Of a stretch of 59,263 bases of DNA, positions 33,558 through 59,263 are shown piece after piece. Under the pieces are notes generated by a model, which ran no database searches, was not told the DNA's origin, and worked only from the letters and a program-made list of their open reading frames with translations. The stretch is taken from assembly GCA_009379825.1 (NCBI GenBank), contig WHTA01000030.1, forward strand, positions 1 through 59,263, read 5' to 3'. The stretch's first letter is position 1, and each line of letters starts with the position of its first letter. The DNA is from Streptosporangiales bacterium (GTDB taxonomy: Bacteria > Actinomycetota > Actinomycetes > Streptosporangiales > WHST01). The position numbers were made by a program, and so were the translations under genes.

Positions 33558-34352
33558 TCACTTCTGCTCCGTACCCTGCCTGGCACGTACGACTGCTTGC
33601 ACCTGGCTCACCACCTCCGCGGCGACCGTGCCGGCGAAGCTCTTCGCCAACCCCGCGTCCGCCCAGTCGGGGTTGCCGTACCAACCGGCTTCGGTGAGCT
33701 CGGCGACGTCGGTGACGAACCCGTAGACCTCGTGCGAACGACGCATCTGGTCGAGCTCGGCCGCGCCCGGCGGCCGGGACGGTTGGCCCGCCCGGTCGAC
33801 CTTCGCCAGCGCGGGGTCGTGTGCGAGCACGGCGAGTGTCTCGATGCCGCCGCCATGGGTCAGCTCGCCGCCGAGCTCGCGGTAGATGCGCTGTGCCACG
33901 TAACACGCCTGGACGGCGACGAACGTGGTGTCGTGCTCCGCCTGCAACCTGATGGCGACGGCGTTCATCGACGGGATGTTGCCCTCGTGCCAGTTGACCA
34001 ACACGACCGTGTGCACGCCGTGGCCGATCAGCTCGCGGCAGATGTCGGTGAGCAGTGCGTCGAACGTCTCTTGGCGGAGGCTGATGGTGCCCGGCCAGCC
34101 GGCGTGCAGCGGCGTCACCCCGTACGGCGCGAACGGTACCCGCAGTGCGTCGAGGCGTTCGGCCACCGCGTCCGCGACGAGGTTGGCGGCCATGATGTCG
34201 GTGCCGTTGGGCAGGTGTGGGCCGTGCTGTTCGACGCTGCCGAGCCCGACGACCGCGGTGCCGCTGCGCCGTACGAGCGCCTCGGTCTCCGGCGAGGTGA
34301 GCTCCACGAGCCGCCTGCCTGCCGACGCCAGCTCGTCGTGCTGGTCAGGCAT
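33558..34352 (-). CDS. Creatininase-family amidohydrolase
   Basis: A 264-residue metal-dependent hydrolase. Ligand motif 1 is GSVEQHGPHLPNGTD (Glu, His, Asp) and motif 2 is VVLVNWHEGN with His, followed by HGGGIETLAVLA. Compared with creatininase itself (NGHYEN) the second Glu is shifted by one (WHEGN). Relatives include creatininase, MftE and 3-dehydro-scyllo-inosose hydrolase (IolN), so C-N or C-C ring opening is possible. It overlaps the 3' end of the dehydrogenase gene by 8 bases and is followed by the Gfo/Idh gene. An IolN-like role with the Gfo/Idh enzyme is an inference. Confidence 0.88.
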   Translation of the reverse strand: MPDQHDELASAGRRLVELTSPETEALVRRSGTAVVGLGSVEQHGPHLPNGTDIMAANLVADAVAERLDALRVPFAPYGVTPLHAGWPGTISLRQETFDALLTDICRELIGHGVHTVVLVNWHEGNIPSMNAVAIRLQAEHDTTFVAVQACYVAQRIYRELGGELTHGGGIETLAVLAHDPALAKVDRAGQPSRPPGAAELDQMRRSHEVYGFVTDVAELTEAGWYGNPDWADAGLAKSFAGTVAAEVVSQVQAVVRARQGTEQK

Positions 34353-35343
34353 CGGCCCCTCCTCGCCCGGCCGGAGCTGGCTCGACGACCGGCTCGCGCA
34401 AGGGTTCGCCGCGCAGCATGCGCAGGGCCTCCTGCGCCGCCTTGCGTCGCAGGTCCGCCTCGGACTCCTCGGTGTACCAGGCCATGTGCGGCGTGGTGAT
34501 CAGCCGATCGGCCACGTCGGCGAACGGCGCCAGGTCCGGCGGCTCGGTGGGGAAGACGTCGAGCGCGGCGAACGCCGGACGCCCCGCGCGCAGGCCCGCG
34601 GTGAGTGCGTCGGTGTCGACGAGCGAGCCACGCGCGGTGTTCACGAGCACGGACCCGTACTTCATCCCGGCGAGCTCAGCGGACCCGAGCAACGGGGCGC
34701 CTGTCGGCTCGCCTGGCACGTGCAGCGACACCACGTCGCTGGTGGCGAGTAGCTGGTCGAGGCCCACCGCCCGGACGCCGCGCACCGGTACGTACTCGTC
34801 GTACGCCTGCACGGTGAAGCCGAGCCCGGCGAAGTTCCGCGCCGTCTGGGTACCGATCCGGCCGTAGCCGACCACACCCGCGGTCATGGCGCTCGGCAGG
34901 TGCAGCGGACGCAACGACGACACCCCCCAGCTCCCGCCGCGCACCACGCGGTCGGCCTCGACGAGTCGGCGCAGCGCGGCGGTGGCGAGGCTCACCGCGT
35001 GGAAGGCCACCGCCTCGGTGCCGTAGTCGGCCACGCGCGCGACCGCGATGCCCAGCCGCTCCGCGGCCGCCAGGTCGATGTTGTCGGTGCCGATCCCGCT
35101 GCGGACCACACCGCGGCAGTTGAGCTCTGCCAGCACGTCGGCGTCCAGCTTGGGCAGTGACCCGACGAGGATCACCGCCGCGTCGCGGGCAGCCGCGACG
35201 ATCCGGTCGCTGCTGCTACCTGGATCGGTGACCAGCCGGGCCCCGAACGGGTGGAACAGCTCCTCCTCGATGGCAAAGTCGGCGTACCGGGTGCCGAGTA
35301 CGGCGACCAGTGGTTGCGCCGCGTTCCGCCGGGTCGTGGGCAT
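34345..35343 (-). CDS. D-2-hydroxyacid dehydrogenase family protein
   Basis: A 332-residue NAD-dependent dehydrogenase from ATG 35343 with GGAGG upstream. Nucleotide-binding GVVGYGRIGTQTARNFAGLG, then catalytic-region DVVSLHVPGEPTGAPL, LVNTARGSLVDTDALTAGL and the C-terminal ITTPHMAWYTEESE with the catalytic His. This C-terminal motif marks the CtBP/phosphoglycerate dehydrogenase-like branch. It is the first gene of the leftward operon and is preceded by a LacI-type operator and a good promoter (35359-35415). Confidence 0.9.
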   Translation of the reverse strand: MPTTRRNAAQPLVAVLGTRYADFAIEEELFHPFGARLVTDPGSSSDRIVAAARDAAVILVGSLPKLDADVLAELNCRGVVRSGIGTDNIDLAAAERLGIAVARVADYGTEAVAFHAVSLATAALRRLVEADRVVRGGSWGVSSLRPLHLPSAMTAGVVGYGRIGTQTARNFAGLGFTVQAYDEYVPVRGVRAVGLDQLLATSDVVSLHVPGEPTGAPLLGSAELAGMKYGSVLVNTARGSLVDTDALTAGLRAGRPAFAALDVFPTEPPDLAPFADVADRLITTPHMAWYTEESEADLRRKAAQEALRMLRGEPLREPVVEPAPAGRGGADA

Positions 35344-35358
35344 CGGGCCTCCGATGCG

Positions 35359-35415
35359 ATGCAAACGACTGCATGAATTTGCAGTCACGGTAAGACCAGC
35401 CGTCGTGGCTGTCAA
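35359..35415 (-). promoter_or_regulatory. Promoter and LacI-type operator of the dehydrogenase operon
   Basis: Read leftward, TTGACA at 35415-35410 and TACCGT at 35392-35387 are 17 bases apart. The operator ATGCAAACGACTGCAT (35359-35374, as written on the + strand) lies just downstream, where a bound repressor would block RNA polymerase. The sequence matches five other operators in the window. It also sits 99 bases ahead of the divergent MFS gene and may control both. Confidence 0.8.
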
Positions 35416-35472
35416 TGTCCGGCGGTCGCTCGATAGCTGGCGCCGCATGTCGCGGGCGCTATCCTCGACCTG

Positions 35473-43974: not shown

Positions 43975-45030
43975 TCAGCTGCGGCGCGAACGACTGCTGT
44001 TGCGTTTCGACAGTGCTGCCGTGGACGCGCGCACGACCAGTGTCAGCGGCAGGGTGACCGACCGCGGGGGTCGGTCAGGTTCGCGTAGCTCCTCGAGCAG
44101 CAGCCGCGCGGCCTCGGCGCCGATCTCGTACTGCGGGATGTGGACGGTGGTCAGCGGCGGCTTCAGCTTGTCCATCACGGGGATGTCGTTGAAGCCGACG
44201 ATGCTCACGTCGGCCGGGCAGCGCAGCCCCCGGTCGGCGAGCACGTCGTAGCAACCCAGTGCGATGAGGTCATTGCCGGCGAGCACGGCGGTGAAGTCGG
44301 CGCCGGAGTCGAGCAGCGCGGAGAGGCTCGCCGCGCCGGCCGACTCTGTCCACGACTCGCATTCCACGACGAGGTCGGCCGAGTGTTCCAAGCCGTGGTC
44401 GTCGAGTGCCTGGCGGTACGCGCGCAGCCGTTCGACCCCGGTGGACAGGCTCTGCGGGCCGGCGAGGTGGGCGATCTTGCGGTGGCCGAGCTCGACCAGG
44501 TGGCGCATCGCCAACGCCACACCGGTCGCGTCGTCCGCGGTGACCGCAGGGATGCCGGCCTTGGCGACCTTGCGGTTCACCAGGACCATCGGCGTACGCG
44601 CGTCGGCGAGCTTTTCGAGCAGCGGGTGGTCAAGCCGCGCGGTCGCGAAGACGAAGCCGTCGACGTTGCGGTCGCGCAGCGACTCCACGACACCGATCTC
44701 GCGTTCGCTGTCGTTGTCGGTGTTCACGATCCAGGCGTTGTAACCGACCGTCGCGAGCACGTCCTCGACGCCGCGGACGATGGGTGGGAACAGCGGGTTG
44801 GTCAGGTCGGGCACCACCAGGCCGATGCTCGCCGACCGGGACGTCTTCAGGCTGCGTGCGATCGGGTTCGGCCGGTAGCCGAGCGTCTCGGCGACGTTGT
44901 TGACCCGGTTCGCCGTCTCTGCGTTGACCAGGTGGCGGGTGTTCGGGTTGAGGGCGCGCGACGCCGTCGCGGGGTGCACTCCGGCACGGTCCGCCACGTC
45001 TCGCAGTGTTGGCCTTCCCACGTCCGGCAT
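43975..45030 (-). CDS. LacI-family transcriptional regulator 2
   Basis: A 351-residue regulator from ATG 45030. DNA-binding domain PTLRDVADRAGVHPATASRA with recognition helix HPATASRALNP and hinge YRPNPIARSLKTS, then effector domain IGLVVPDLTNPLFPPIVRGV. The last stretch is Ser/Arg-rich. It is clearly a paralogue of LacI 1. It is divergent from the branched-chain-type ABC operon, whose promoter carries a perfect copy of the operator at 45118-45133. It is probably the local repressor, with cross-talk to LacI 1 likely. Confidence 0.93.
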   Translation of the reverse strand: MPDVGRPTLRDVADRAGVHPATASRALNPNTRHLVNAETANRVNNVAETLGYRPNPIARSLKTSRSASIGLVVPDLTNPLFPPIVRGVEDVLATVGYNAWIVNTDNDSEREIGVVESLRDRNVDGFVFATARLDHPLLEKLADARTPMVLVNRKVAKAGIPAVTADDATGVALAMRHLVELGHRKIAHLAGPQSLSTGVERLRAYRQALDDHGLEHSADLVVECESWTESAGAASLSALLDSGADFTAVLAGNDLIALGCYDVLADRGLRCPADVSIVGFNDIPVMDKLKPPLTTVHIPQYEIGAEAARLLLEELREPDRPPRSVTLPLTLVVRASTAALSKRNSSRSRRS

Positions 45031-45081
45031 CGTAATCGGTCGGCGTCGGTGCAACCGACAGCGCGTACCGGGGCGACGGCC

Positions 45082-45133
45082 TTGACAGACGATGAGGTCC
45101 GTCACATGATACGGGGAACGCAATCGATTGCAA
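45082..45133 (+). promoter_or_regulatory. Promoter and perfect-core operator of the Liv-type ABC operon
   Basis: TTGACA at 45082-45087 and CATGAT at 45105-45110 are 17 bases apart. The operator ACGCAATCGATTGCAA (45118-45133) contains the perfect palindrome GCAATCGATTGC at 45120-45131 over the expected start site. The divergent LacI 2 gene begins 52 bases upstream. Confidence 0.85.
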
Positions 45134-45178
45134 TGAGTCTCGGTTGTCGGGCGGTTAGCCAACGAAGGAGGCCACCCC

Positions 45179-46408
45179 ATGCCACTGACACGGCGCGACG
45201 TGCTGCGGGCCGGGACGGCCGGCGCGGCCAGCATGGTGGTGCTCGCCGCATGCGGTACGCCGCAGAGCGAGCGGGCCAACGACTCCGACAAGCCGATCAC
45301 CATCGGCATCTCGCTCCCCCTGACCGGCGACTTCTCTCAGCCGGGCAAGGAGGCGAGGCGTGGCTACGAAGTCTGGGCGAAGCTGGTCAACGCGAACGGT
45401 GGACTGCTCGATCGCAAGGTCGAGCTGAAGATCACCGACGACGCCAGCAACCAGGACACCGTGGTCAGCGACTACACCAGGCTGATCAACCAGGACAAGG
45501 TCGACCTGTTGCTCGGCACCTTCTCCTCGCTGCTGAACTACCCGGCGTCCGCGGTGGCGGAGAAGAACCAGATGCTCTACGTGGAGCCGGCCGGCGGTGA
45601 TCCGAAGATCTTCAAGCGCGGCTTCAAGTACCTCATCTATGCGCAGCCAGCCATCGCGCCGAAGCAGGCCGACGTACTGGTGGACTGGGTGAAGTCGCTG
45701 CCGGAGGCGGAGCGGCCGAAGACGGTTGCGTACGCCACGCAGGACGACCCGTTCACCAAGCCGGTGATCGACACCATGCGCAAGCAGCTCGAGGATCTCG
45801 GCGTCCGTACCGTCTACAACACGGTGTATCCGCCGGACGCGACGAACTTCCAGAGCATCGCCAACTCGATAGCGGCGAAGAAGCCCGACATGATCGCGCA
45901 GGGCGCGGTCTTCGAGGACGGTGTCGGTCTCGTCCGGTCGCTCAAGCAGCTCGACTACTCGCCGGATCTCCTCTTCCAGACCTCTGCGCCGAGCAACGCG
46001 GGGCAGTACAGCGACGGCGTGGGCGTCGAGAACACCGAGGGCGTCTTCTACACGGTGAGTTGGAACGAGAAGGCGACCACCCCGAAGAACAAGGAGTTCG
46101 TCGAGCAGTACGCGAAGATGTACGACAACGCCACGCCGGCCGAGGACGCCGCAGACGCGTTCTCCGCGGCGCAGGTGTTGCAGGCGGCCGTGGAGAACGT
46201 CGGCAAGATCGACCAGAAGGCGCTTGCCGACTGGCTGCACGCGAACTCGGTGCAGACCATTCTCGGCAAGCTCAACTGGGACGAGACCGGTGCACCGCAG
46301 TCGAAGTTCCTGTTGGCGCAGTGGCAGAGCGGAAAGGTGCAGATCGTGGCGCCGTCCGGTCGGGCCACCACGGAGAAAGTGGTGCATCCCAAGCCCGGCT
46401 GGAAGTGA
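45179..46408 (+). CDS. Branched-chain-amino-acid-type ABC binding lipoprotein
   Basis: A 409-residue receptor with AAGGAGG upstream of ATG 45179. The N-terminus has a twin-arginine-like TRRDVLRAG and a lipobox at Cys25 (VVLAAC). The mature protein opens ITIGISLPLTGDFSQPGKEA and includes NANGGLLDRKVELKITDDAS, typical of the LivJ/Peripla_BP_6 class. Such receptors bind branched amino acids, amides, urea or aromatic acids. It heads the operon to 50369. Confidence 0.93.
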   Translation: MPLTRRDVLRAGTAGAASMVVLAACGTPQSERANDSDKPITIGISLPLTGDFSQPGKEARRGYEVWAKLVNANGGLLDRKVELKITDDASNQDTVVSDYTRLINQDKVDLLLGTFSSLLNYPASAVAEKNQMLYVEPAGGDPKIFKRGFKYLIYAQPAIAPKQADVLVDWVKSLPEAERPKTVAYATQDDPFTKPVIDTMRKQLEDLGVRTVYNTVYPPDATNFQSIANSIAAKKPDMIAQGAVFEDGVGLVRSLKQLDYSPDLLFQTSAPSNAGQYSDGVGVENTEGVFYTVSWNEKATTPKNKEFVEQYAKMYDNATPAEDAADAFSAAQVLQAAVENVGKIDQKALADWLHANSVQTILGKLNWDETGAPQSKFLLAQWQSGKVQIVAPSGRATTEKVVHPKPGWK

Positions 46409-46414
46409 TCGTCC

Positions 46415-47296
46415 GTGGCGCAGCTCGTCCAGACGGTGGTGCTCGGCCTGCTGATCGGCGGTGTCTACGCGCTGCTCGCTGCCGGGTTGACGCTGATATT
46501 CGGCGTGATGCGCATCGTCAACGTGGCACACGGCGCGTTCTTGGTGCTGGTCGCCATGCTCACCTGGTGGATGTGGCGGATGACGGGGCTCGACCCGATC
46601 CTCGGCGCGGTGATCACCACCCCGCTGATGTTCGGCTTCGGTTGGCTCGTCTACCGCACCCTCGTCCTGCGGCTGACGGGTTCTTCGCCGTCGATGTACG
46701 TGCTGCTCACGTTCGGTCTGGCGCTGACCATCGAAGGTGCCCTGAACGTGACCGCAGGCAACAGGTTCCGTTCGGCGACCCCGTCGTACTTCGAGGAGTC
46801 GTTCCGGGTGGCGGGCATCGCACTGCCGAAGGCGCAGGTCTACGGTTTCCTCGCTGCTGTTGTGGTGTTGGCGATCTTCTACGTCATGTTGTCGGTGACC
46901 TGGACCGGCAGGGCGTTGCGTGCGACGGCGCAGAATCCGTCCAGCGCCGCGCTCGTCGGAGTTGGCGCGACGACGACCGCGACCCTGGCGTTCGCGTTGG
47001 GTACGGCCACGACGGGCGTCGGTGGCTCGATCATGTCCGTGCTGTACCCGTTCTTCCCCGCGTCGCACTACGACTGGATCGCGCGGCTGCTCGGCATCAT
47101 CGTGCTCGGCGGCATGGGCAGGTTGCCGGGTGCGTTGGTCGGTGCGCTGATCCTGGGCATGGCGGAGACGCTGACCGCGACGTACTGGTCGTTGCGGTGG
47201 TCCACGCTGGTCTTCTACATCGTGATCATGCTCGTGTTGTTGGTGCGGCCGCAGGGCTTGTTCGGTACTCGATTGCGGGAGGACATGGCAACGTGA
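46415..47296 (+). CDS. ABC permease, LivH type
   Basis: A 293-residue permease from GTG 46415. Starts QTVVLGLLIGGVYALLAAGL and includes FGVMRIVNVAHGAFLVLVAM, hallmarks of LivH. It continues with GGMGRLPGALVGALILGMAE near the C-terminus. It forms the channel with the LivM half of the next gene and overlaps it by GTGA. Confidence 0.93.
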   Translation: MAQLVQTVVLGLLIGGVYALLAAGLTLIFGVMRIVNVAHGAFLVLVAMLTWWMWRMTGLDPILGAVITTPLMFGFGWLVYRTLVLRLTGSSPSMYVLLTFGLALTIEGALNVTAGNRFRSATPSYFEESFRVAGIALPKAQVYGFLAAVVVLAIFYVMLSVTWTGRALRATAQNPSSAALVGVGATTTATLAFALGTATTGVGGSIMSVLYPFFPASHYDWIARLLGIIVLGGMGRLPGALVGALILGMAETLTATYWSLRWSTLVFYIVIMLVLLVRPQGLFGTRLREDMAT

Positions 47297-49116
47297 CGTC
47301 CCTGCGGCGGCTCCTGCGCTCGCGGCGGATCCTCGTCGCCGCGCCCCTCGTCGTGCTCGGACTGTTCCCCGTCATCCGGCCGTACGACAGCTACCCGCAG
47401 GCCGTCTTGCTGTTGGCCTTCCTGCTGGCGATCCAGGCTGTCAGTTGGAACATCATCTCCGGCTACGCCGGTTACATCTCGCTCGGGCACAGCGCCTATC
47501 TCGGCATCGGTGCCTACACCACAGGCATCGTCGGACTGCACACCGGTGTGAACCCGTTCATCGTCGCGCCGGTGGCCGGCCTGGTGGCCGTCGTGACCGC
47601 GTTCGTGGTGGGCATTGTGGTGCTTCGGACTCGTGGCCCTGCGTTCGTGATCATCACCATCGCCGTGCTGCTTGCGGCACAGATCGTTGCGTTGAACTGG
47701 TCGGGGCTGACGAGCGGCTCCGAGGGCATCACGCTGGAGATGCCGTTCTGGTCGAGCGACATCCAGAACCTGCCGTTCTACTACTTCTTCTTCGTGTTGC
47801 TGCTCGCAACGATTGCCGTGAGCGCTGCGATCAGACGCTCCAGGTTCGGTGCGGGACTCGTGGCGATACGTGAAGACGAGGGCAAGGCTGCCGCGATCGG
47901 CGTGAACACGACGCGCTACAAGGTGCTCGCCTACTGCGTGAGTACGTTCTTCATCGGGGTGGCCGGTTCGGGATACGCGTACTTCCAGACGTTCCTGAAC
48001 CCGATCGGAGCGTTCAACATCCTGGCGAGCGTCATGATCGTGCTGGCGGCGCTCGTCGGTGGGCGTGGGACGTTGTGGGGGCCGGTAATCGGCGCGTTCA
48101 TCGTGCAGGGCGTGAACGAGCTCGCCACGGTGACCGGTGGCGGCTCGAACGCCCGGGTGCTGATGTTCGGCGTGCTGCTCGTCGTGGTCGTTCTCTTCCT
48201 GCCGGCCGGATTGCTGCCGACGATCGAACGCTGGTGGCGTGCCAGGCATCCGGCGGAGGTCAAGTACATCGAGCAGAGCGAGGCGCTGGCGCCGACCCGG
48301 TTGGAGGTGGCGGCTTCGCCGCGTACGGACGCGGACGCTGCGTCGGAACGTCCGTTGCTCGAGGTGCGGGGAGTCAGCAAGCGCTTCGGCGGTCTCAGTG
48401 CGGTTGCGGATGCCGACCTGACCGTCGCCAGGGGCAGCATCACCGCGGTCATCGGTCCGAACGGCTCGGGCAAGACGACGTTGTTCAACCTGGTCACCGG
48501 TGCGATGCGCGCGGACGCCGGTGAGATCTGGTTCGACGGGCGCCGTATCGACCGGCTGCGGCCGTGGGCCCGCGGTCACCTCGGGCTCGGCCGAACTTTC
48601 CAGACCACCCGCCTGTTCAAGGAAATGCCCGTACTGGAGAACGTCGTCGCTCCACCTCCGGACGGGCGTTGGCGCACCATGTACGCGGGAGCGCGCGGTG
48701 GCAAGGCCGTCGATCGAGCGCGCGAGCTGCTCGCGTTCGTCGGCCTGGAAGGGCTGGCCGATGACCCGGCCGGGTCGCTCTCCTACGGCCAGCAGAAGCT
48801 GGTCGAGCTGGTGCAGGTGCTCATGATGGAGCCGAAGCTGATCCTGCTCGACGAGCCCGCCGGTGGGGTGAACCCGAGCCTTGTCGCCCGGCTGGCCGAC
48901 ATCGTGAGGGACCTGAACCAGCAGGGCGTCAGCTTCCTCGTGGTCGAGCACAACATCCCCATGGTGCTCGAACTCTGCGACCCGGTGGTCGTCTTCGCGC
49001 GCGGTGCGCCGATCGCCGTCGGGCCGCCGGACACCATCAGGAACGATCCGGCGGTGCTGGATGCGTACCTGGGCGAGGACTACTCGGCCGAGCAGGGATC
49101 GGTGCGGTCATGCTGA
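47293..49116 (+). CDS. Fused LivM-type permease and LivG-type ATPase
   Basis: A 607-residue fusion. Residues about 1-320 are the LivM-like permease (NIISGYAGYISLGHSAYLGI, then GAGLVAIREDEGKAAAIGVN). Residues about 355-600 are a LivG-like ATPase with Walker A IGPNGSGKTTLFN, Q-loop GLGRTFQTTRLFKEMPVLEN, signature LSYGQQKLVELVQVL and Walker B LILLDEPAGGVNPSL. The linker is Ala/Thr/Asp-rich. Fusions of these two subunits are known in some importers. It overlaps livF by 7 bases. Confidence 0.93.
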   Translation: MTSLRRLLRSRRILVAAPLVVLGLFPVIRPYDSYPQAVLLLAFLLAIQAVSWNIISGYAGYISLGHSAYLGIGAYTTGIVGLHTGVNPFIVAPVAGLVAVVTAFVVGIVVLRTRGPAFVIITIAVLLAAQIVALNWSGLTSGSEGITLEMPFWSSDIQNLPFYYFFFVLLLATIAVSAAIRRSRFGAGLVAIREDEGKAAAIGVNTTRYKVLAYCVSTFFIGVAGSGYAYFQTFLNPIGAFNILASVMIVLAALVGGRGTLWGPVIGAFIVQGVNELATVTGGGSNARVLMFGVLLVVVVLFLPAGLLPTIERWWRARHPAEVKYIEQSEALAPTRLEVAASPRTDADAASERPLLEVRGVSKRFGGLSAVADADLTVARGSITAVIGPNGSGKTTLFNLVTGAMRADAGEIWFDGRRIDRLRPWARGHLGLGRTFQTTRLFKEMPVLENVVAPPPDGRWRTMYAGARGGKAVDRARELLAFVGLEGLADDPAGSLSYGQQKLVELVQVLMMEPKLILLDEPAGGVNPSLVARLADIVRDLNQQGVSFLVVEHNIPMVLELCDPVVVFARGAPIAVGPPDTIRNDPAVLDAYLGEDYSAEQGSVRSC

Positions 49117-50383: not shown

Positions 50384-51919
50384 TCAGTGTGCGGGCATGA
50401 CCGTGGCCGGTTCGATGCCGAGGTCCTCGAGGACGCAGCGCGCGGCGTTGCGGCCGGGGCGGCCGGAGACCGAGCCGCCCGGATGCGTCGTGGCGCCGGT
50501 GAGGTAGAGCCCGGGAATCGGCGTACGGTGCGTCGGCCAGCCCGGGACGATGCCGTCGTCGCCGAGGTCGAACTCGCCGCCGTGGCAGGAACCGCCGACG
50601 TTGTGCGGGTTGCGCCTGGCGAGGCTCGCGGGCGACTCGGGTACGACCGCGAGGACGTCGGACGACTGCAGCCCGATCACCCGCTTCCGTGCGACGGTCA
50701 GCAACCGTTCGGCGTACGCCTCGGTGGCGTCGTCGTCCCACGGCCGGTCGTCGGACAGTCGGGACGGCGCAGCGGTGAGCAGCTTGAGCACGCCACCAGG
50801 TGCGCGTGCCGGGTCGACGGCCGTGGCGGAGACGAGTAGCAGCCAGGGGTCGTCGGTCTCCGCGTGCCCCGCGTAGCAGCCGTCGACCTGTCGTCGCAGC
50901 CCCGCCGGTGTGCCGAGCGCACCAGCCACGGCTGTGGTAGCTCCGTCTGCCGTGCGGTAGCGGATGTCGGTACGCAACGCGACGTGCACGGCGAACAGCG
51001 CCAGTCCAGGACGCCAAGTTGCGGCCGCCTGCTGTAGGGGCGCCGGCACCGGTGTCGGCAAGAGCTCGGGCAGGTGTGCCAGGTGCGCGGACGACACCAC
51101 GCCGACCGAAGCCGTAAACCTACGCCCGTCGGTGGTCTCCACGCCGACCGCGCGGCCGGCGTGGATGAGGATCCGCGCGACCTGTGCGGACGTCACCACC
51201 GTGCCGTCGTGGTCGGCGAGATGCCGGGCGAGTGCGTCCGGGAGCGCACTCGACCCGCCTACCGGTGTGGCCCACCCGTACTGCAGTCGGCCACCGGTGA
51301 TGGCGGCGGGCAATGCGCCCGTCCCTGGGCGCTGCGGCGGCTGGATGGTGGCGAACGCCAGCCAGGTCATGAGCGCGCGGCTCACCGGATGGCTGAACGT
51401 GTCGTGCACGACGTCCCACGCGCTTCGCCTGCGCAGCTCCTCGTAACGGCGGCCGGCGTCGCCGGTCGGCGGGAGGCCGGCGGACCACCGGGCGTGCTGG
51501 CCGGCGAGGCAGTCGCGCCAGTCGGCCATCATCGTGCGCAGGGCGGCTGCGTCGGCAGTCGACCAGCGCGCCAGCTCGTCGGCGGTGGCGTCCACGTCGC
51601 GGTGCATCACGACCGCTTCTTCGTCCAACGGCATGACGACCGCTGGATCGGTGTGGATGTACTGCAGTCCGTAGCGGGCGAGCAGCCCCAGCTCGTCGTC
51701 GCGGATCAGTGGGTTCGACTGGACGACGACGTGGGCGCTGGAACACGAGTCGTGCCGCCAGCCGGGGAAGGTGAGCTCCTCGGTGATGGTGTCGCCGCCG
51801 AGCTGCGCGCCCGCTTCGACGACGAGCACCTGCAGGCCTGCCTCCGCGAGGTATGCCGCGCACGTGAGCGCGTTGTGGCCGCCGCCGATCACCACGATCT
51901 CCGCATCCGCCGCGGTCAT
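50384..51919 (-). CDS. FAD-dependent oxidoreductase of the phytoene-desaturase-like family
   Basis: A 511-residue flavoprotein. N-terminal dinucleotide-binding GGGHNALTCAAYLAEAGLQV, followed by VVEAGAQLGGDTITEE, and C-terminal FAD-binding GLYLTGATTHPGGSVSGRPG with ARCVLEDLG. This C-terminal motif is shared by the CrtI/NAD(P)/FAD-dependent and PYROXD2-like groups. No carotenoid genes are near, so a desaturase or oxidase role on the pathway substrate is more likely. Its ATG overlaps the TGA of the upstream M24 gene by 4 bases (51916-51919), so they are co-translated. Confidence 0.87.
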   Translation of the reverse strand: MTAADAEIVVIGGGHNALTCAAYLAEAGLQVLVVEAGAQLGGDTITEELTFPGWRHDSCSSAHVVVQSNPLIRDDELGLLARYGLQYIHTDPAVVMPLDEEAVVMHRDVDATADELARWSTADAAALRTMMADWRDCLAGQHARWSAGLPPTGDAGRRYEELRRRSAWDVVHDTFSHPVSRALMTWLAFATIQPPQRPGTGALPAAITGGRLQYGWATPVGGSSALPDALARHLADHDGTVVTSAQVARILIHAGRAVGVETTDGRRFTASVGVVSSAHLAHLPELLPTPVPAPLQQAAATWRPGLALFAVHVALRTDIRYRTADGATTAVAGALGTPAGLRRQVDGCYAGHAETDDPWLLLVSATAVDPARAPGGVLKLLTAAPSRLSDDRPWDDDATEAYAERLLTVARKRVIGLQSSDVLAVVPESPASLARRNPHNVGGSCHGGEFDLGDDGIVPGWPTHRTPIPGLYLTGATTHPGGSVSGRPGRNAARCVLEDLGIEPATVMPAH

Positions 51920-53100
51920 GATGTGGCTCCCAAGGCGACGAGGCCGGTTGGGAACCGGTGCAGCGATTCGTAACCATGTTCCGTGATGACGACCATCTCG
52001 CCGGTCTGGACGCCGGCCTTGAGATCGGGTGTGCACACGTTCGGCTGCACCACGAGAGTGGTGCCCACCCGCAACGGCTCCGCGTGCAGTCCCGCCGGCT
52101 CGGCGTGGCGTTCGCTGAGCACCGGGGGCAGGTAGCCGCCGCCGAGCCCGTGCACTAGGTCGTCGACCGTCACGAGACCCGCCGACCGTACGGGTGCCAG
52201 GGCGGCGAGCAACTCCGCCGGCACAGCGCCCGGGCGCAGCCGCGCCAGTGCCTCGTCGCGCACTGCCTCAGCAACCTCGTGCAGTCGGTCGTAGAGCGGT
52301 GTGGGTGGCGCCGCGATGGTTGCCGTACGCAGCAGCTGTGCCGGGTAGTCGGCGCCCCATCCCGCGCTGAGCTCGAAGACGACCACCGAGCCTGGACGGG
52401 CGCGGCGCGCGGACGGCCACTGCGCCGGCACACACCGATCCGGCGCGTCCATGGCGGTCGTGGTGACGTAGCAGATGTGGTGCGTGCCACCGGCGCGCCG
52501 GTACGCGAACTCCGCTGCCGCGACCATCTCCTGTTCGCTGGCGCCGCCCGCGGCCGTGTCGAGCAGTGCGGTGGCGGCGTGGTCGGTCAACGCGGCCGCA
52601 TGCCGCAGCCAGCCGAGCTCTTCTGTCGACTTGGTCATCCGGAGCCTGGTGTACGCGGTGTCGAGGCCGACGACGTCGGTGGCCCAGACGCAGACGGCGT
52701 CGCGCACCGGCCGCGGTAGCGGCCCGACCAGAGCCACTGTGCATGGTTGCCTGCCGCGGGTGAGCGCGTCGACGGTCGCCGTGGGGGTGTTGCCGTCCAG
52801 CTGCGCCACGCGGTCGCCGAGGCCCGCGGCTGCGGCCGTCCTGCGGGCGTCCGGCACGTGGTTGGGGAAGCCGACGAGCAGGTCGGCCGTCAGGTCGGGA
52901 TGCAGCACCACCACCGCCTCCCTGGTGACCGGCCAGGTGGTCAACCACGGAATCGCCGTACCGGAGCGGTTGGCGCCGTACGCGACCACTGTGTCGGCTC
53001 CCGCGGCGGCCGCAGCCTCGACGAGCCGGCGCCGGCGAGCGAGCAACTCGCCGCGGCTGAACGGCGGAGGTGCGCTCGGCAGTTGGGACGTCGTTGACAC
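51916..53100 (-). CDS. M24-fold protein with altered metal site (creatinase-like)
   Basis: A 394-residue pita-bread-fold protein, N-terminal creatinase-like domain plus C-terminal M24 domain. GTG 53100 is the earliest start, without a clear ribosome site. Metal peptidase ligands are mostly lost. The first Asp region reads VVVFELSAGWGADYPAQLLR, where the usual Asp pair is Glu/Leu and Gln, and the first Glu motif is VVQPNVCT instead of xxEPG. The His in VHGLGGGYLPP and an acidic residue in GEMVVITEHG remain. Creatinase shows that such metal-free folds can hydrolyse other C-N bonds. It is divergent from the alpha/beta hydrolase with a LacI-type operator between them. Confidence 0.82.
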   Translation of the reverse strand: MSTTSQLPSAPPPFSRGELLARRRRLVEAAAAAGADTVVAYGANRSGTAIPWLTTWPVTREAVVVLHPDLTADLLVGFPNHVPDARRTAAAAGLGDRVAQLDGNTPTATVDALTRGRQPCTVALVGPLPRPVRDAVCVWATDVVGLDTAYTRLRMTKSTEELGWLRHAAALTDHAATALLDTAAGGASEQEMVAAAEFAYRRAGGTHHICYVTTTAMDAPDRCVPAQWPSARRARPGSVVVFELSAGWGADYPAQLLRTATIAAPPTPLYDRLHEVAEAVRDEALARLRPGAVPAELLAALAPVRSAGLVTVDDLVHGLGGGYLPPVLSERHAEPAGLHAEPLRVGTTLVVQPNVCTPDLKAGVQTGEMVVITEHGYESLHRFPTGLVALGATS

Positions 53101-53136
53101 AACGTCGATGATCGGCGACTATGCACACGATTGCAA
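53094..53136 (+). promoter_or_regulatory. Promoter and LacI-type operator of the alpha/beta hydrolase gene
   Basis: TTGACA at 53094-53099 and GACTAT at 53117-53122 are 17 bases apart. The operator ATGCACACGATTGCAA (53121-53136) begins at the -10 and covers the start site. It lies between the divergent M24 gene (start 53100) and the hydrolase (start 53151), so it may control both. Confidence 0.75.
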
Positions 53137-53150
53137 TAGGTGGGTGTGTC

Positions 53151-54215
53151 ATGGACGACCGGGTGGCGTCGGCGATCGCGAACTGGGCACCGCGGTTCAC
53201 CACGAACGGTGTGGCGGTCAGCGACTTCGAGCGGGTGACCCGCAGCGTCGGACGGTGGGACGACTGGTGTTCCGCATGGAGCGCCGTCGCTGCCGAACAC
53301 GAGGCGCTCGCCGCGGAAGCGCTGCACGAGCAGCGGTTGCGCTCGGCCGGGCAGCATTACGCGCGGGCCGCCGTCTACTACCACTTCGCCAAGTACCTCT
53401 TCGTGCACGACCGGGCGCAGCTGCGCGAGGCGCACCAGGCGGCCGTGCGGTGCCTGGACGTGGCGCTACCTTACCTGGACCCGCCCGGGCGGCGGATCGA
53501 GATTCCGTACCGCGGGTCGAACCTGGTGGGGATCCTGCGGTTGCCGTCCGGCGCCGACGGCCCGCAACCGTTGGTAGTGCTCGTACCCGGGCTGGACTCG
53601 GCGAAGGAGGAGTTCAGGTCGACCGAGGCGCTGTTCCTGGAGCGGGGACTGGCGACGTTCAGCGTGGACGGGCCCGGGCAGGGCGAAGCCGAGTACGACC
53701 TGCCGATCCAGGGTGACTGGGAGGTGCCGGGCGAAGCGATCCTCGATGCGGTCGCCGCTCTGGCCGAGGTCGACCAGGAGCGCATGGGCGTCTGGGGCGT
53801 GAGCCTCGGTGGCTACTACGCGCCCCGCATCGCCAGTGGTGACGACCGGGTGCGGGCGTGCGTCGCACTGGCCGGACCGTACGACTTCGGTGCCTGCTGG
53901 CCGGTGTTGCCCGCGTTGACCAGGGAGGCGTTCCGGGTGCGGTCGCGATCGGCGGACGACGGGGCGGCGCGTGAGGCGGCGCACGGGCTCAGCCTCGCCG
54001 GCCGTACGTCGTCGATCAGGTGCCCGCTGCTGATCGTCACCGGGAAGCTTGACCGACTGATTCCGTACCAACATGCGCAGCGGCTCGCCGCGGAAGCCGC
54101 GGGGCCGACCACGCTACTCCTGCTCGACGACGGCAACCACGGCTGCATGAACGTTGCGGCGAAACATCGCCAGAAGACGGCGGACTGGCTGGCCACTCGG
54201 TTGCAGGCCACTTGA
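53151..54215 (+). CDS. Alpha/beta hydrolase related to 2,6-dihydroxypseudooxynicotine hydrolase
   Basis: A 354-residue hydrolase from ATG 53151. A helical N-terminal cap (residues about 1-115, with HYARAAVYYHFAKYLFV) precedes the alpha/beta core. Nucleophile Ser218 in GVWGVSLGGYY, Asp301 in GKLDRLIP and His330 in DDGNHGCMN form the triad. The numbering is one off from the Ser217/Asp300/His329 triad I recall for the Arthrobacter nicotine-pathway C-C hydrolase, which this protein resembles overall. That suggests C-C or ester cleavage of a ring-opened keto compound. An earlier ATG at 53121 lies in the operator and is rejected. Confidence 0.85.
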   Translation: MDDRVASAIANWAPRFTTNGVAVSDFERVTRSVGRWDDWCSAWSAVAAEHEALAAEALHEQRLRSAGQHYARAAVYYHFAKYLFVHDRAQLREAHQAAVRCLDVALPYLDPPGRRIEIPYRGSNLVGILRLPSGADGPQPLVVLVPGLDSAKEEFRSTEALFLERGLATFSVDGPGQGEAEYDLPIQGDWEVPGEAILDAVAALAEVDQERMGVWGVSLGGYYAPRIASGDDRVRACVALAGPYDFGACWPVLPALTREAFRVRSRSADDGAAREAAHGLSLAGRTSSIRCPLLIVTGKLDRLIPYQHAQRLAAEAAGPTTLLLLDDGNHGCMNVAAKHRQKTADWLATRLQAT

Positions 54216-54259
54216 CGCTCTCGTCGCGTCTCGTCTACCGTCGTAGCAATCGATTGCAT
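54212..54259 (+). promoter_or_regulatory. Promoter and LacI-type operator of the dehydrogenase-M24-E1 operon
   Basis: TTGACG at 54212-54217 (overlapping the stop of the hydrolase) and TACCGT at 54236-54241 are 18 bases apart. The operator TAGCAATCGATTGCAT (54244-54259), with the perfect core GCAATCGATTGC at 54246-54257, follows directly. The -10 is identical to that of the leftward operon promoter at 35387-35392. Confidence 0.8.
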
Positions 54260-54298: not shown

Positions 54299-55243
54299 AT
54301 GGCCGACCGAACGCTGCCGCCGCTACGGGTCGGCTGGATCGGCACCGGCCGGATGGGCGCGCCGATGGCGCGTCGGCTCGCTCGCCGCGGGGTGGATATT
54401 ACGGTCTGGAACCGCACCCGTAGCAAGGCCGAGCCGTTGCAGGCCGACGGTGCCACCGTGGTCGACGACGTCCTCGACCTCGCCGACCGCGACGTGGTGT
54501 TCACCATGGTGGCCGCCTCGGACGACCTCGCCCAGGTGCTCACGGGCAAAGGTGGCTTGCTGACCGACGCCGACGCCAAGCCCGACATCGTCGTGGACTG
54601 CTCCACCGTCTCCATCGAGACGGCCGCGGCGATGCGCGTCGCCGCGCGGGACCGGGGCGTCGAGTTCCTCGCCGCACCGGTGAGCGGGAACGGCAAGGTC
54701 GTGGAGGCGGGCAAGCTCAGCCTCGTCGCCTCGGGCGCTGAGGACGTGTTCCAGCGCGTGCAGCCGCTGCTCGAGTGCATCGGCCGGGCGGCGACGTACG
54801 TCGGGGAGGACGAGGCGGCGCATCTGGTGAAGATCTGCCACAACCTCTTCCTCGGTGTGGTCACGCAGTCGATGGCCGAGATCACAGTGCTGGCGGAGAA
54901 GGGCGGCGTCTCACGTACGGCGTTCCTCGACTTCCTCAACAACAGCGTCATGGGCTCGACGTTCACCAGGTACAAGTCACCGCAGTTCATCAAGCTCGAC
55001 TACACGCCCACCTTCACGCCCGTGCTGCTCCGCAAGGACTTCGACCTCGGCTTGGCGGCGGCGAACGAGCTCGGTGTACCGATGCCGCTCGCCGCGCTGA
55101 CCAAGCAGCTGGTGCAGGGCACCATCGGCCGCGGGCGGGCCGACGAGGACTTCGCCGTGCTGCTGGACCAGCAGGCCGCCAGCGCCGGGCTCGACCTGAA
55201 ACCCGAGGAAGGCGACGTCGACGACGGCCTCGCAAGCGACTAA
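54299..55243 (+). CDS. Beta-hydroxyacid dehydrogenase (3-hydroxyisobutyrate/tartronate-semialdehyde type)
   Basis: A 314-residue NAD(P)-dependent dehydrogenase from ATG 54299 with AAGAGG upstream. Rossmann motif GWIGTGRMGAPMARRLARRG, then VWNRTRSKAEPLQADG, substrate loop VDCSTVSIETAAAM, GVEFLAAPVSGNGKV, and catalytic Lys178 in AAHLVKICHNLF. It interconverts a beta-hydroxyacid and a semialdehyde. The Gly-Asn pair in place of the usual Gly-Gly in the PVSGG motif may alter specificity. First gene of the operon to 58483. Confidence 0.9.
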   Translation: MADRTLPPLRVGWIGTGRMGAPMARRLARRGVDITVWNRTRSKAEPLQADGATVVDDVLDLADRDVVFTMVAASDDLAQVLTGKGGLLTDADAKPDIVVDCSTVSIETAAAMRVAARDRGVEFLAAPVSGNGKVVEAGKLSLVASGAEDVFQRVQPLLECIGRAATYVGEDEAAHLVKICHNLFLGVVTQSMAEITVLAEKGGVSRTAFLDFLNNSVMGSTFTRYKSPQFIKLDYTPTFTPVLLRKDFDLGLAAANELGVPMPLAALTKQLVQGTIGRGRADEDFAVLLDQQAASAGLDLKPEEGDVDDGLASD

Positions 55244-55255
55244 GGAGGCGATCGC

Positions 55256-56506
55256 ATGATTGTTCCGGCGACTGCGCTCACACCCTCGCCCGGACGCATG
55301 AGTGTCGACTTCGAGGAGCGCGTCGATTTCGGGCGACTGCGCGACTACCGTCTCGGCCGGGCGCGTGCCGCGCTGGACGCGTCCGAGCTCGGTGCGCTCC
55401 TGGTGTTCGACGTGAACAACATCCGCTACCTCACGTCGACCATGATCGGTGAGTGGGCCCGCGACAAGATGGCCCGCTACGCGCTGCTGGCGCGCGAGGC
55501 CGAGCCGGTGGTGTGGGACTTCGGTTCCGCGGCCAAGCACCACCAGCTGTACGCGCCGTGGCTGCGACCGGAGAACTCACGGGCGGGGATGCTCGGCTTG
55601 CGCGGCTCCGTCGCACCCCCCGCCGGGCTCTTCGAGCTCGCCGCCCGTGAGATCAAGGAATTGCTCGAGCAGGCCGGCGTGGCAGACATGCCCGTCGGTG
55701 TGGACGTCGGCGAACCGCCGATGATCTTCGAGCTGCAACGGCTGGGTCTGGACGTCCGCGACGGGCAGCAGGTGATGCTCGACGCCAGGCAGATCAAGTC
55801 GCCGGACGAGATCGCGTTGCTTTCGACCGCCGCCTCGATGGTCGACGGCACGTACCAGACGATCGTCGACGCGCTGAAGCCCGGGATCAGGGAGAACGAA
55901 GTGGTGGCGCTGGCCAACAAGCGCCTCTATGAGATGGGCTCCGACGACGTGGAGGCGATCAACGCGGTATCGGGCGAACGCTGTAGCCCGCACCCGCACA
56001 ACTTCACCGACCGGTTGATCCGGCCGGGCGACCAGGTGTACTTCGACATCATCCAGTCGTTCAACGGGTACCGCACCTGCTACTACCGCACGTTTGCGGT
56101 CGGCCGTTCCACGCAGATGCAGCGCGACGCGTACGTCAAGGCACGGGAGTGGATCGACGCGGCGATCGAAATGGTGAAGCCGGGCGTAGGTACCGACGAC
56201 ATCGCGCGGCTGTGGCCGCGTGCCGAGGATTTCGGCTTCCCCAGCGAGATGGCCGCGTTCGGGCTACAGTTCGGGCACGGTCTCGGGTTGGCGCTGCACG
56301 AGCGTCCGATCATCAGCCGGTTGAACTCGCTCGAGCATCCGGTGGAGCTGGAGGAGGGCATGGTCTTCGCGTTGGAGACCTACTGTCCCGCCACGGACGG
56401 CTACTCCGCCGCGCGCATCGAGGAGGAGGTCGTCGTGACCGCAGACGGCTGCCGTGTGCTCACCCTGTTCCCTGCAGAGGAGTTGTTCGTTGCCAACGCC
56501 TACTGA
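55256..56506 (+). CDS. M24-fold protein with Cys at a metal-ligand position
   Basis: A 416-residue pita-bread-fold protein from ATG 55256, with AAGGAGG 8 bases upstream. The first metal Asp is Asp264 (VYFDIIQSFNG). The second, 11 residues later, is Cys275 in RTCYYRTFAVG instead of Asp. The His in QFGHGLGLALHE, Glu in VFALETYCPA and Glu in ARIEEEVVV remain. It is therefore unlikely to be a standard dinuclear Xaa-Pro peptidase. It lies between the dehydrogenase and the E1 alpha gene, overlapping the latter by 17 bases. DddP and creatinase show that M24 folds can carry non-peptidase chemistry. Confidence 0.85.
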   Translation: MIVPATALTPSPGRMSVDFEERVDFGRLRDYRLGRARAALDASELGALLVFDVNNIRYLTSTMIGEWARDKMARYALLAREAEPVVWDFGSAAKHHQLYAPWLRPENSRAGMLGLRGSVAPPAGLFELAAREIKELLEQAGVADMPVGVDVGEPPMIFELQRLGLDVRDGQQVMLDARQIKSPDEIALLSTAASMVDGTYQTIVDALKPGIRENEVVALANKRLYEMGSDDVEAINAVSGERCSPHPHNFTDRLIRPGDQVYFDIIQSFNGYRTCYYRTFAVGRSTQMQRDAYVKAREWIDAAIEMVKPGVGTDDIARLWPRAEDFGFPSEMAAFGLQFGHGLGLALHERPIISRLNSLEHPVELEEGMVFALETYCPATDGYSAARIEEEVVVTADGCRVLTLFPAEELFVANAY

Positions 56507-57521
56507 GCTGGGTCTGCCAGCGACCCCCGCGTTCGCGCATCACGTCGACGCCGAGACGGGGCTCCGTCTCTACACCCTGATGGTGCGCCTGCGGCGCTTC
56601 GAGAAGCGCGCGTACGACCTGTTCATGCAGAACCTGGTGAAGGGCACCAGCCACCTCTCGCTCGGCCAGGAGGCAGTCGCGGCCGCGTTCGGCGAGGCGA
56701 TGCGCGCCGACGACTGGACGTTCGCGACGTACCGCGGGCACGCCCACACGCTGGCGCGCGGCACGGAGATGACGCCGGTGATGGCGGAGCTGCTCGGCCG
56801 GGGCAGCGGGCTGCTGGCCGGCAAGGGCGGCTCGATGCACCTGACCAGCGTCGAGCACGGGATGATGGGTTCGTACGCAATCGTCGGCGCCCACCTCACC
56901 ATCGCGAACGGTGCGGCGTGGTCGGCGCGGCTGCGCGGTACCGACCAGGTCGCCGTCTGCTTCTTCGGCGACGGCACCACGAACATCGGTGCCTTCCACG
57001 AGGCGTTGAACCTCGCCGTGATCTGGCGGCTGCCGGTCGTCTTCGTCTGCGAGAACAACCAGTGGATGGAGTACACGGCGATCGGCGACATCACCGCCGT
57101 GCCGCGGCCGGCGGCCGACCGCGCGGGGTCGTACGGCCTGACCGGCGTGGCCGTGGACGGCAACGACGTCACGGCCATGTACGAAGCGGCCACCACGGCG
57201 CTGGGCCGGGCGCGGGCGGGCAACGGGCCGAGCCTGATCGAGGCGCAGACGTATCGGCACGGCGGGCACTCCCGTGCCGACCCGGGGAGGTACCGGCCGG
57301 CCGAGGAGATCCAGGCCTGGCTCGACCGGGACCCGGTGCCGACGTACCGGCAGCACCTGCTCGACACGGGCGTACCGGAGCAAACGGTTGCGGCGATCGA
57401 CGACGACGCCACCCGCGAGATCGACACCGCGACGGAGGCCGCGAAGGCGGCGCCGGCCCCCGATGTCGCGCTGGTGGAGCAGGACGTGTGGGCGGACGGA
57501 GGCGCGGCATGGCGGAACTGA
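56490..57521 (+). CDS. TPP-dependent 2-oxoacid dehydrogenase E1, alpha subunit
   Basis: A 343-residue subunit. TTG 56490 is chosen since GAGGAG at 56477-56482 lies 7 bases upstream. The thiamine pyrophosphate motif runs from GDG at residues 160-162 to NN at 189-190 (FFGDGTTNIGAFHEAL, then VVFVCENNQW). The regulatory-loop region reads YRHGGHSRADPG. It forms an alpha2beta2 heterotetramer with the next gene and decarboxylates a 2-oxoacid. Pyruvate or acetoin dehydrogenase relatives are closest. No E2 or E3 gene is in the window. Confidence 0.9.
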   Translation: MPTPTELGLPATPAFAHHVDAETGLRLYTLMVRLRRFEKRAYDLFMQNLVKGTSHLSLGQEAVAAAFGEAMRADDWTFATYRGHAHTLARGTEMTPVMAELLGRGSGLLAGKGGSMHLTSVEHGMMGSYAIVGAHLTIANGAAWSARLRGTDQVAVCFFGDGTTNIGAFHEALNLAVIWRLPVVFVCENNQWMEYTAIGDITAVPRPAADRAGSYGLTGVAVDGNDVTAMYEAATTALGRARAGNGPSLIEAQTYRHGGHSRADPGRYRPAEEIQAWLDRDPVPTYRQHLLDTGVPEQTVAAIDDDATREIDTATEAAKAAPAPDVALVEQDVWADGGAAWRN

Positions 57522-58483: not shown

Positions 58484-58593
58484 CCCCGCCCTCCGCGCCC
58501 CGGTGAGTGCGGGCAGGCCATGACGTGCGGGAACCGTGCACCGCCCAGCGGCGTGGGTCGCCCGCTGACCGGCCCGCGGAAGTGGAGCCGTGC

Positions 58594-58800
58594 TTGACCC
58601 GGCCCGTCGCAGGGGCCCGGGCACCGACCGGCTCCGCCGGCGTGGGTCGTGCCCTGACCCGATTGCGCGGGCGTGGGCCGCGCGCACGACCTGGCCCGCC
58701 GAAGCGGGCCGTGTGCTGACCCGGTTCCGCGAGGGTGGGGTCGTGCGTTGACCCGGCCCGTCGCAGGGGCCCGGGCACCGACCGGCTCCGCCGGCGTGGG
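58594..58800 (+). repeat. Pair of 53-bp direct repeats
   Basis: Copies at 58594-58646 and 58748-58800 read identically from TTGACCCGGCCCGTCGCAGG through GGCCCGGGCACCGACC to GGCTCCGCCGGCGTGGG. Their starts are 154 bp apart, inside the larger array. Confidence 0.85.
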
Positions 58801-59137
58801 CCGCGCGCGCACTGCCCCGGCCCGCGGAAATGGGGCCGTGCGCTGACCTGGTCGGCGTGGATCGTGCGCTGACCCGGGTCCCGCCGGCGTGGGTCGTGCG
58901 CTGACGCGGTGTCGCGGCGTGGGTCGTGGCGGTCGTGCTTGACCCGGCCTGCATGGGGCCGTGTGCTGACCTGGCCACCCGCAGGGGGCCGGGCACCGAC
59001 CAGGTTCCGCTGGCGTGGGCCGCGCAATGACCCGACCTGCCGGAGTGGGAACCGTGGGCCATCTAGGTCCCTCCGGCGTGGGTCGTGCGCTGAGCCGGAT
59101 CCCGCTGGTGTGGGGCGTGGGTTGATTCGGTTCCGCC

Positions 59138-59263
59138 GGCGTGGGTCGTGTGCTGCCCCGGTCTGCGGAAGTGGGGGTCGTGCGTTGACCCGATTGTGCG
59201 GGCGTGGGTCGTGTGCTGCCCCGGTCTGCGGAAGTGGGGGTCGTGCGTTGACCCGATTGTGCG
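59138..59263 (+). repeat. Perfect 63-bp tandem duplication at the window edge
   Basis: The 63 bases at 59138-59200 (beginning GGCGTGGGTCGTGTGCTG, ending TTGACCCGATTGTGCG) are repeated exactly at 59201-59263, which is the last base of the window. Further copies may lie beyond. Confidence 0.9.

Follow-up and report, generated by a model that had tools for sequence, protein, structure and literature searches.

An M24-Fold Protein Family With Replaced Metal Ligands and a Putative Catabolic Role

The M24A Locus

M24A is an M24-fold protein of 394 amino acids encoded by a Streptosporangiales bacterium (assembly GCA_009379825.1). Its gene has a GTG start and occupies positions 51916 to 53100, on the minus strand, of contig WHTA01000030.1, whose 59,263 nucleotides were analysed as a whole and are called here the window. 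These coordinates are exactly those of the open reading frame (ORF) proposed in an earlier description made from the DNA letters alone, hereafter the sequence-only reading. In M24A, the metal ligands of related enzymes are replaced (E243, Q255, G321, Q352, and G367) and one histidine, H317, is kept. The replacements are near-invariant across the M24A family, and the genes around it suggest a role in catabolism.

Directly downstream of M24A, on the same strand, lies a gene for a flavin adenine dinucleotide (FAD)-dependent oxidoreductase of the amine oxidase or CrtI-CrtO-like type (50384-51919). The TGA stop codon of M24A overlaps the ATG of this gene (ATGA, 51916-51919), in agreement with the translational coupling put forward in the sequence-only reading. 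On the other side, a LacI-type operator-like palindrome, TGCACACGATTGCA, with two mismatches, is found at positions 53122-53135 of the plus strand, between M24A and the divergent gene ABH. The latter encodes an FrsA-like alpha/beta hydrolase (53151-54215, plus strand; the ORF is listed from 53121 and relatives match from 53151). The adjoining LacI operator and the membership in a pathway, both also claimed in that reading, are recovered here as an operator-like site and as a catabolic gene set around M24A. The best solved relative of ABH is 2,6-dihydroxy-pseudo-oxynicotine (DHPON) hydrolase (2jbw, E 2.5e-42), an enzyme that cleaves a C-C bond.

Beyond ABH, a palindrome of the same type, AGCAATCGATTGCA (54245-54258, plus strand), is located upstream of a gene for a nicotinamide adenine dinucleotide (NAD)-binding dehydrogenase resembling 3-hydroxyisobutyrate dehydrogenase and tartronate-semialdehyde reductase (HIBDH, 54299-55243). 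It is followed by M24B, a second M24 protein, which is DddP-like (55256-56506), and by the E1 alpha subunit of a 2-oxoacid (pyruvate-type) dehydrogenase (56454-57521). All three genes are on the plus strand, and HIBDH and E1 alpha were assigned by family matches. In M24B, Cys275 stands at the position of the bridging Asp, in 18 of 18 rows with the window included, and the remaining four ligands are unchanged (Asp264, His341, Glu374, and Glu389); M24B possibly has a Cys-containing metal site.

Fold and Family Membership

M24A belongs to the M24 (pita-bread) superfamily. It matches Peptidase_M24 (Pfam PF00557) with an E value of 4.7e-20; this domain is matched in all 58 M24A family members and Creatinase_N in 14 of them. 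An AlphaFold2 model, built from 58 of the 81 alignment rows available (L063 was omitted for an internal stop and 22 others by choice), has a complete two-domain creatinase/prolidase fold (pLDDT 95.8, pTM 0.94). Compared by VIA-align, this model resembles prolidase 5cde (Z 37.5, root-mean-square deviation (rmsd) 2.7 over 365 residues), creatinase 1chm (Z 36.7, rmsd 2.2 over 354 residues), and the ectoine hydrolase DoeA 6yo9 (Z 36.3, rmsd 2.8 over 357 residues), followed by DddP (Z 32.5) and the N-domain of SPT16 (Z 31.2). The Pfam match and the comparison with creatinase and prolidase structures confirm the M24/creatinase fold that had been proposed, and a chance ORF at 51916-53100 is ruled out by the homologues and the fold.

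The fold alone designates neither a peptidase nor a creatinase, because 5cde and 1chm are tied, less than one Z unit apart. By sequence, the family profile gives an E value of 1.6e-32 with prolidase 1pv9 vs. 1.8e-18 with creatinase 1chm. The specialized NCBIfam models do not claim the protein: PepQ or other peptidase models reach at best 38.1 bits for a cut-off of 630, and those of ectoine hydrolase DoeA reach 18.6 bits (cut-off 613) and 30.2 bits (cut-off 575). The DddP model does not match M24A of the window at E 1e-3; it matches 34 of the 58 family members, with a best E value of 3.3e-15. Since no model match is found and the ligands are absent, M24A would not be a DddP-type dimethylsulfoniopropionate (DMSP) lyase.

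Replacement of the Metal Ligands

The metal ligands of E. coli aminopeptidase P are Asp260, Asp271, His354, Glu383, and Glu406; His243, His350, and His361 are essential and Arg404 provides hydrogen bonds (PMC5774706). The hidden Markov model of the M24A family, aligned to this enzyme with the C-terminal half left unaligned, places E243 at Asp260, Q255 at Asp271, and A226 at His243. Profile-profile alignment with metal-intact relatives places Q352 at Glu383, Q365 at Arg404, G367 at Glu406, H317 at His350, and G321 at the metal ligand His354. In this register, all five metal ligands are exchanged, and so are the counterparts of His243 and Arg404.

The profile-profile alignment was repeated 30 times with both the M24A rows and the metal-intact prolidase-type rows resampled. 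The intact relatives had been chosen from 40 loci by their ligand motifs; 17 were found, of which the 16 having the HxxGHG motif entered the resampling. All 30 alignments give the same counterparts for the Asp-Asp pair (E243 and Q255), the first Glu (Q352), the second Glu (G367), the Arg (Q365), and the catalytic His (A226). In all of them as well, H317 falls on the first His of HxxGHG, which is not a ligand; hence, the position of the metal-binding His is that of G321. Alignments to prolidases of the PDB by phmmer and hmmsearch support this register in most of the chains shown, that of 5cnx being ambiguous. The counterpart of His361 could not be mapped with confidence. A model of M24B, made with the His register in mind, is of low confidence (pLDDT 68.4, with values below 50 at residues 336-349).

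The sequence-only reading had described the loss of most metal ligands from the strings VVVFELSAGWGADY, AQLLR, and VVQPN, which are indeed present in M24A. It even understated this loss, since all five ligands are changed in the profile alignments. Its statement on a retained catalytic His region is true of the HG motif at H317 only; the position of His243 is occupied by A226. It had also concluded that M24A is not a peptidase. With the metal ligands and the counterpart of His243 absent, M24A is predicted to stand outside the metallopeptidases, as defined by the D, D, H, E, E ligands and His243, and an ordinary Xaa-Pro peptidase is rejected on sequence.

Conservation and Phylogeny

The replacement residues were followed in an alignment of 96 rows, comprising the window protein, 93 loci (L021-L113) with one row apiece, and two additional hits; the window gene is counted again as L101, related genomes are included, and L063 has one stop written as X. 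Q255, Q352, Q365, and H317 are conserved in all 96 rows, and E243 and G367 in 95. Outside these positions, Q227 is conserved in 95 rows, R258 and N354 in 96, and E368 is Glu in 82. The G321 column contains G in 87 rows, M in 8, and I in 1. In the A226 column, at the position of His243 of aminopeptidase P, the residues listed are A (52), S (14), R (14), G (9), P (3), T (2), and E (1), with no His among them.

Six of the eight mapped site columns are within the 29 of 394 columns conserved in at least 95 of the 96 rows (hypergeometric 2.4e-6). The patterns used to search for loci L021-L100 span H317-G322 and Q352-N354, so that these columns are biased. E243, Q255, Q365, and G367 lie outside the patterns, and four of the five mapped columns outside both patterns belong to the most conserved set (3.7e-5). 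These counts indicate that purifying selection is acting on the replacement residues. Decay of a single gene is ruled out, the replacements being near-invariant across the family.

In a tree of 60 rows, the 30 sampled M24A family rows form one group (100/97). L011, L018, and a Haloarcula protein join the family at 100/98; L020 does so too, on a long branch whose placement is unsure. The E/Q/Q/Q/G signature is common to L011, L018, and the Haloarcula protein, and L020 retains Glu at the position of Glu383. The shared signature and the grouping in the tree indicate that the loss of ligands is probably old and shared. The Haloarcula relative, carried by a plasmid, is 31% identical to M24A and its gene is divergently adjacent to that of an ABH relative (30%). 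Paired M24A-type genes at most 10 kb apart occur in L051, L073, and genomes G009 and G542, which suggests duplication.

Distribution and Partner Genes

M24A is rare in the class of its host: a cut-off of E 1e-40 gives 12 carriers, the host among them, in 394 genomes. At the more permissive E 1e-15, matches come from 14 of 396 genomes of the phylum sample, intact relatives being counted too. Among the 594 pattern matches listed from a scan of species genomes, at least 285 encode relatives at E 1e-3, and 80 were kept. Among those kept are relatives from Nonomuraea, Streptosporangium, Planotetraspora, Blastococcus, Acidimicrobiia, Solirubrobacterales, Hyphomicrobiales, Burkholderiaceae, and Polynucleobacter. 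Pilus or secretin genes near Proteobacterial M24A loci were judged to be chance neighbours.

ABH is the most constant partner. At E 1e-70, it is present in 11 of the 12 M24A genomes (host included) vs. 3 of 382 others (Fisher 5.6e-18), and at the genus level in 10 of 11 M24A genera vs. 3 of 127 others. In genome G595, M24A and ABH are on different contigs, so that the association is more than gene order. In 15 of the 80 loci, no more than 600 bases separate ABH from M24A (7 divergent, 5 tandem, and 3 convergent). Partners in the M24A flanks were counted from matches of half length or better, overlaps excluded, in flanks of unequal size (at least 21 kb in 29 of the 80 loci): ABH was found 31 times, HIBDH 22, LacI 21, M24B 17, and FAD 16. 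In 8 of the 80 loci, the FAD gene follows M24A immediately and in the same orientation. For the loci without ABH in the flank, 48 of 49 were considered (L038 omitted), corresponding to 47 genomes; 31 of these carry ABH elsewhere at E 1e-50, and 30 at 1e-70.

Eight M24A loci carry a gene of a molybdenum-hydroxylase large-subunit cluster, one member of which was identified by Pfam. Among distant relatives of ABH (33-36% identity), there are cases with a nicotine-pathway hydrolase annotation and cases with a molybdopterin gene close by. Two of three M24B plasmid regions also have genes for E1/E2 2-oxoacid dehydrogenase and semialdehyde dehydrogenase, and one is without them. These plasmid neighbourhoods are a suggestive clue to the pathway and would name no substrate.

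Other Features of the Window

A LacI-family regulator is encoded on the minus strand at 43975-45309, as the ORF is listed; its helix-turn-helix begins at residue 101, and the listed start probably lies too far upstream. A palindrome, CGCAATCGATTGCA (45119-45132, plus strand), is inside the listed 5' extension of this ORF and just upstream of the LivK-type gene, which encodes a branched-chain-amino-acid-type ATP-binding cassette (ABC) substrate-binding protein (45179-46408, plus strand) and is the first of a Liv-type transporter set extending to 49847. Within this set, LivM (permease) and LivG (ATPase) are in one continuous frame at 47293-49116, an apparent fusion. In total, six sites of the LacI-type palindrome are found in the window vs. 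0.79 expected, one of the six being the seed, as the pattern was set after the copy at 54245 had been seen. Copies with two to three mismatches at 35360, 36711, and 38175, near MFS and NMT1-type ABC genes, are hinting at a larger regulon.

Elsewhere, the window contains an OsmC-like gene, an amidohydrolase, an LVIVD protein, and a group of ABC genes including one for an NMT1-like binding protein. At 33558-35448, a creatininase-family gene and a 2-hydroxyacid dehydrogenase gene are neighbours, and both have homologues near M24A in L035, L041, and L061. At 58548-59263, a tandem array of units of about 31/62 bases runs to the end of the window, with overlapping arginine/proline/glycine-rich frames, and is probably non-coding.

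Proposed Role of M24A and Alternatives

From the computed fold, ligand loss, conservation, and gene association we infer, with a confidence slightly above even, that M24A is an enzyme that works without metal and converts a small organic molecule within a catabolic pathway under LacI control. The M24A family is distinct and widespread, its dinuclear site being rebuilt as a near-invariant Glu/Gln/Gln/Gln/Gly set with one retained His. Most likely, no catalytic metal is bound. The substrate would occupy the old metal pocket, held by Gln and Asn residues; the conserved N80-H81 of the N-terminal domain would probably also hold it, from the partner subunit if the dimer is creatinase-like. E243 and/or H317 could perform acid-base chemistry leading to cleavage or elimination at a C-N, C-C, or C-O bond. 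M24A would function in one LacI-controlled pathway with the DHPON-hydrolase-like ABH and, in many cases, the FAD oxidoreductase. C-N bond chemistry is conceivable and not specifically favoured; ABH, the most constant partner, resembles a C-C bond hydrolase.

A broader proposal is more tentative, and we hold it with less than even confidence. The family might represent a separate metal-free catalytic solution in the pita-bread fold, unlike that of creatinase, built on a near-invariant Glu, three Gln, and one His, and distributed from Actinomycetota and Alpha- and Betaproteobacteria to haloarchaea. It might serve an undescribed pathway for a nitrogenous or aromatic ring compound, with a DHPON-type C-C hydrolase and sometimes a molybdenum hydroxylase. 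The pathway is apparently undescribed, and no paper on the M24A family is among the matches listed in the open-licence PubMed Central literature, subscription papers being mostly outside this set. The family is annotated as peptidase (Pfam Peptidase_M24), and one annotated plasmid record calls a member “Xaa-Pro peptidase family protein”, though the metallopeptidase residues are gone. It would thus be a clean case of a metal active site rebuilt without metal.

Several points weigh against the metal-independent enzyme. L109 (genome G412), whose contig also carries ABH and M24B, is the only one of the 96 rows in which Ala stands in place of E243 and Ser in place of G367, and E243 may be dispensable in this lineage. 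The co-occurrence counts of M24A and ABH allow for relatedness by the genus count only, and 16 of the 47 genomes mentioned above are without ABH at E 1e-50, so that the pairing is not universal. The histidine register is ambiguous: a MAFFT alignment with very divergent outgroups places H317 on the metal-binding His, which leaves four of five ligands lost. We consider this register less likely than that of the profile alignments, and the dinuclear site is gone under either. Finally, the conserved pocket residues would fit a non-catalytic ligand-binding protein as well.

This last possibility is a serious rival, although we consider it rather unlikely. M24A would be a pseudoenzyme, the pocket of which binds a pathway metabolite, acting as sensor, scaffold, or partner subunit, possibly of M24B. 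The missing metal ligands and His243 counterpart agree with this, and metal-less M24 proteins that are not peptidases exist, as described for PA2G4/Ebp1 (PMC3888471). A close M24B is present in 10 of the 12 M24A genomes vs. 10 of 382 others, the close set of 20 genomes being cut at about 68% identity among 48 matched genomes; with all 48, the overlap with M24A is again 10 (Fisher 1.6e-8). However, 2 of the 12 M24A genomes have no close M24B, 10 of the 20 close M24B genomes have no M24A, and M24B is in the flank of 17 of 80 M24A loci. An obligate M24A-M24B heterodimer is disfavoured by these co-occurrence counts. Moreover, a polar pocket near-invariant across phyla and in an archaeon suits catalysis at least equally.

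The sequence-only reading saw in M24A a creatinase-like C-N hydrolase with the chemistry of creatinase itself, which now appears improbable. In its favour, creatinase is among the closest folds, Creatinase_N is matched by some family members, and a creatininase-family gene is in the same window. However, the catalytic His232 of creatinase presumably lies at the position of His243 of aminopeptidase P, an equivalence drawn through the aminopeptidase P alignment. This position is Ala in M24A and variable in the family, where the listed residues include no His. For this reason, a mechanism of the creatinase type is unlikely, and creatinase does not hold as the mechanistic model. The preference of the family profile for prolidase 1pv9 over 1chm also argues against it.

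There is similarly little chance that M24A is still a metalloenzyme, with a single metal bound by altered ligands (such as H317, E243, E368, or D313). The MAFFT register sets H317 on the metal-binding His, E243 offers a carboxylate where a ligand is expected, residue 368 is Glu in most rows, and the neighbouring M24B, with Cys for Asp, shows that unusual ligand sets are tolerated in the cluster. However, all 30 profile alignments put H317 off the metal position, and the five positions include two Gln and one or two Gly, residues that make poor ligands.

Comparison With Known Systems

The prolidases, Xaa-Pro dipeptidases, and aminopeptidase P (M24B subfamily) are nearest to M24A by profile and have the same fold; M24A differs by the five replaced ligands and by the counterparts of His243 and Arg404. 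Creatinase (1chm, 7yto), which is not known to use a catalytic metal, shares the two-domain pita-bread fold with M24A (rmsd 2.2 over 354 residues). The two proteins are 20% identical, and M24A has no His at the presumed catalytic position, as judged from the aminopeptidase P alignment.

Other members of the fold act on small molecules. The DMSP lyase DddP (4b28, 4s00) and the neighbouring M24B share the fold of M24A, and DddP differs in binding iron at a dinuclear site, with six residues as ligands (PMC4108388). The ectoine hydrolase DoeA/EutD (6twk, 6yo9), a catabolic M24 enzyme of the same fold, differs in that M24A scores far below its NCBIfam cut-offs (18.6 for 613 and 30.2 for 575).

The N-domain of SPT16 has the M24 fold and is not known to bind metal. 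PA2G4/Ebp1 has this fold without a metal site (PMC3888471). These proteins are eukaryotic regulators, whereas M24A is found in a bacterial and archaeal catabolic gene neighbourhood.

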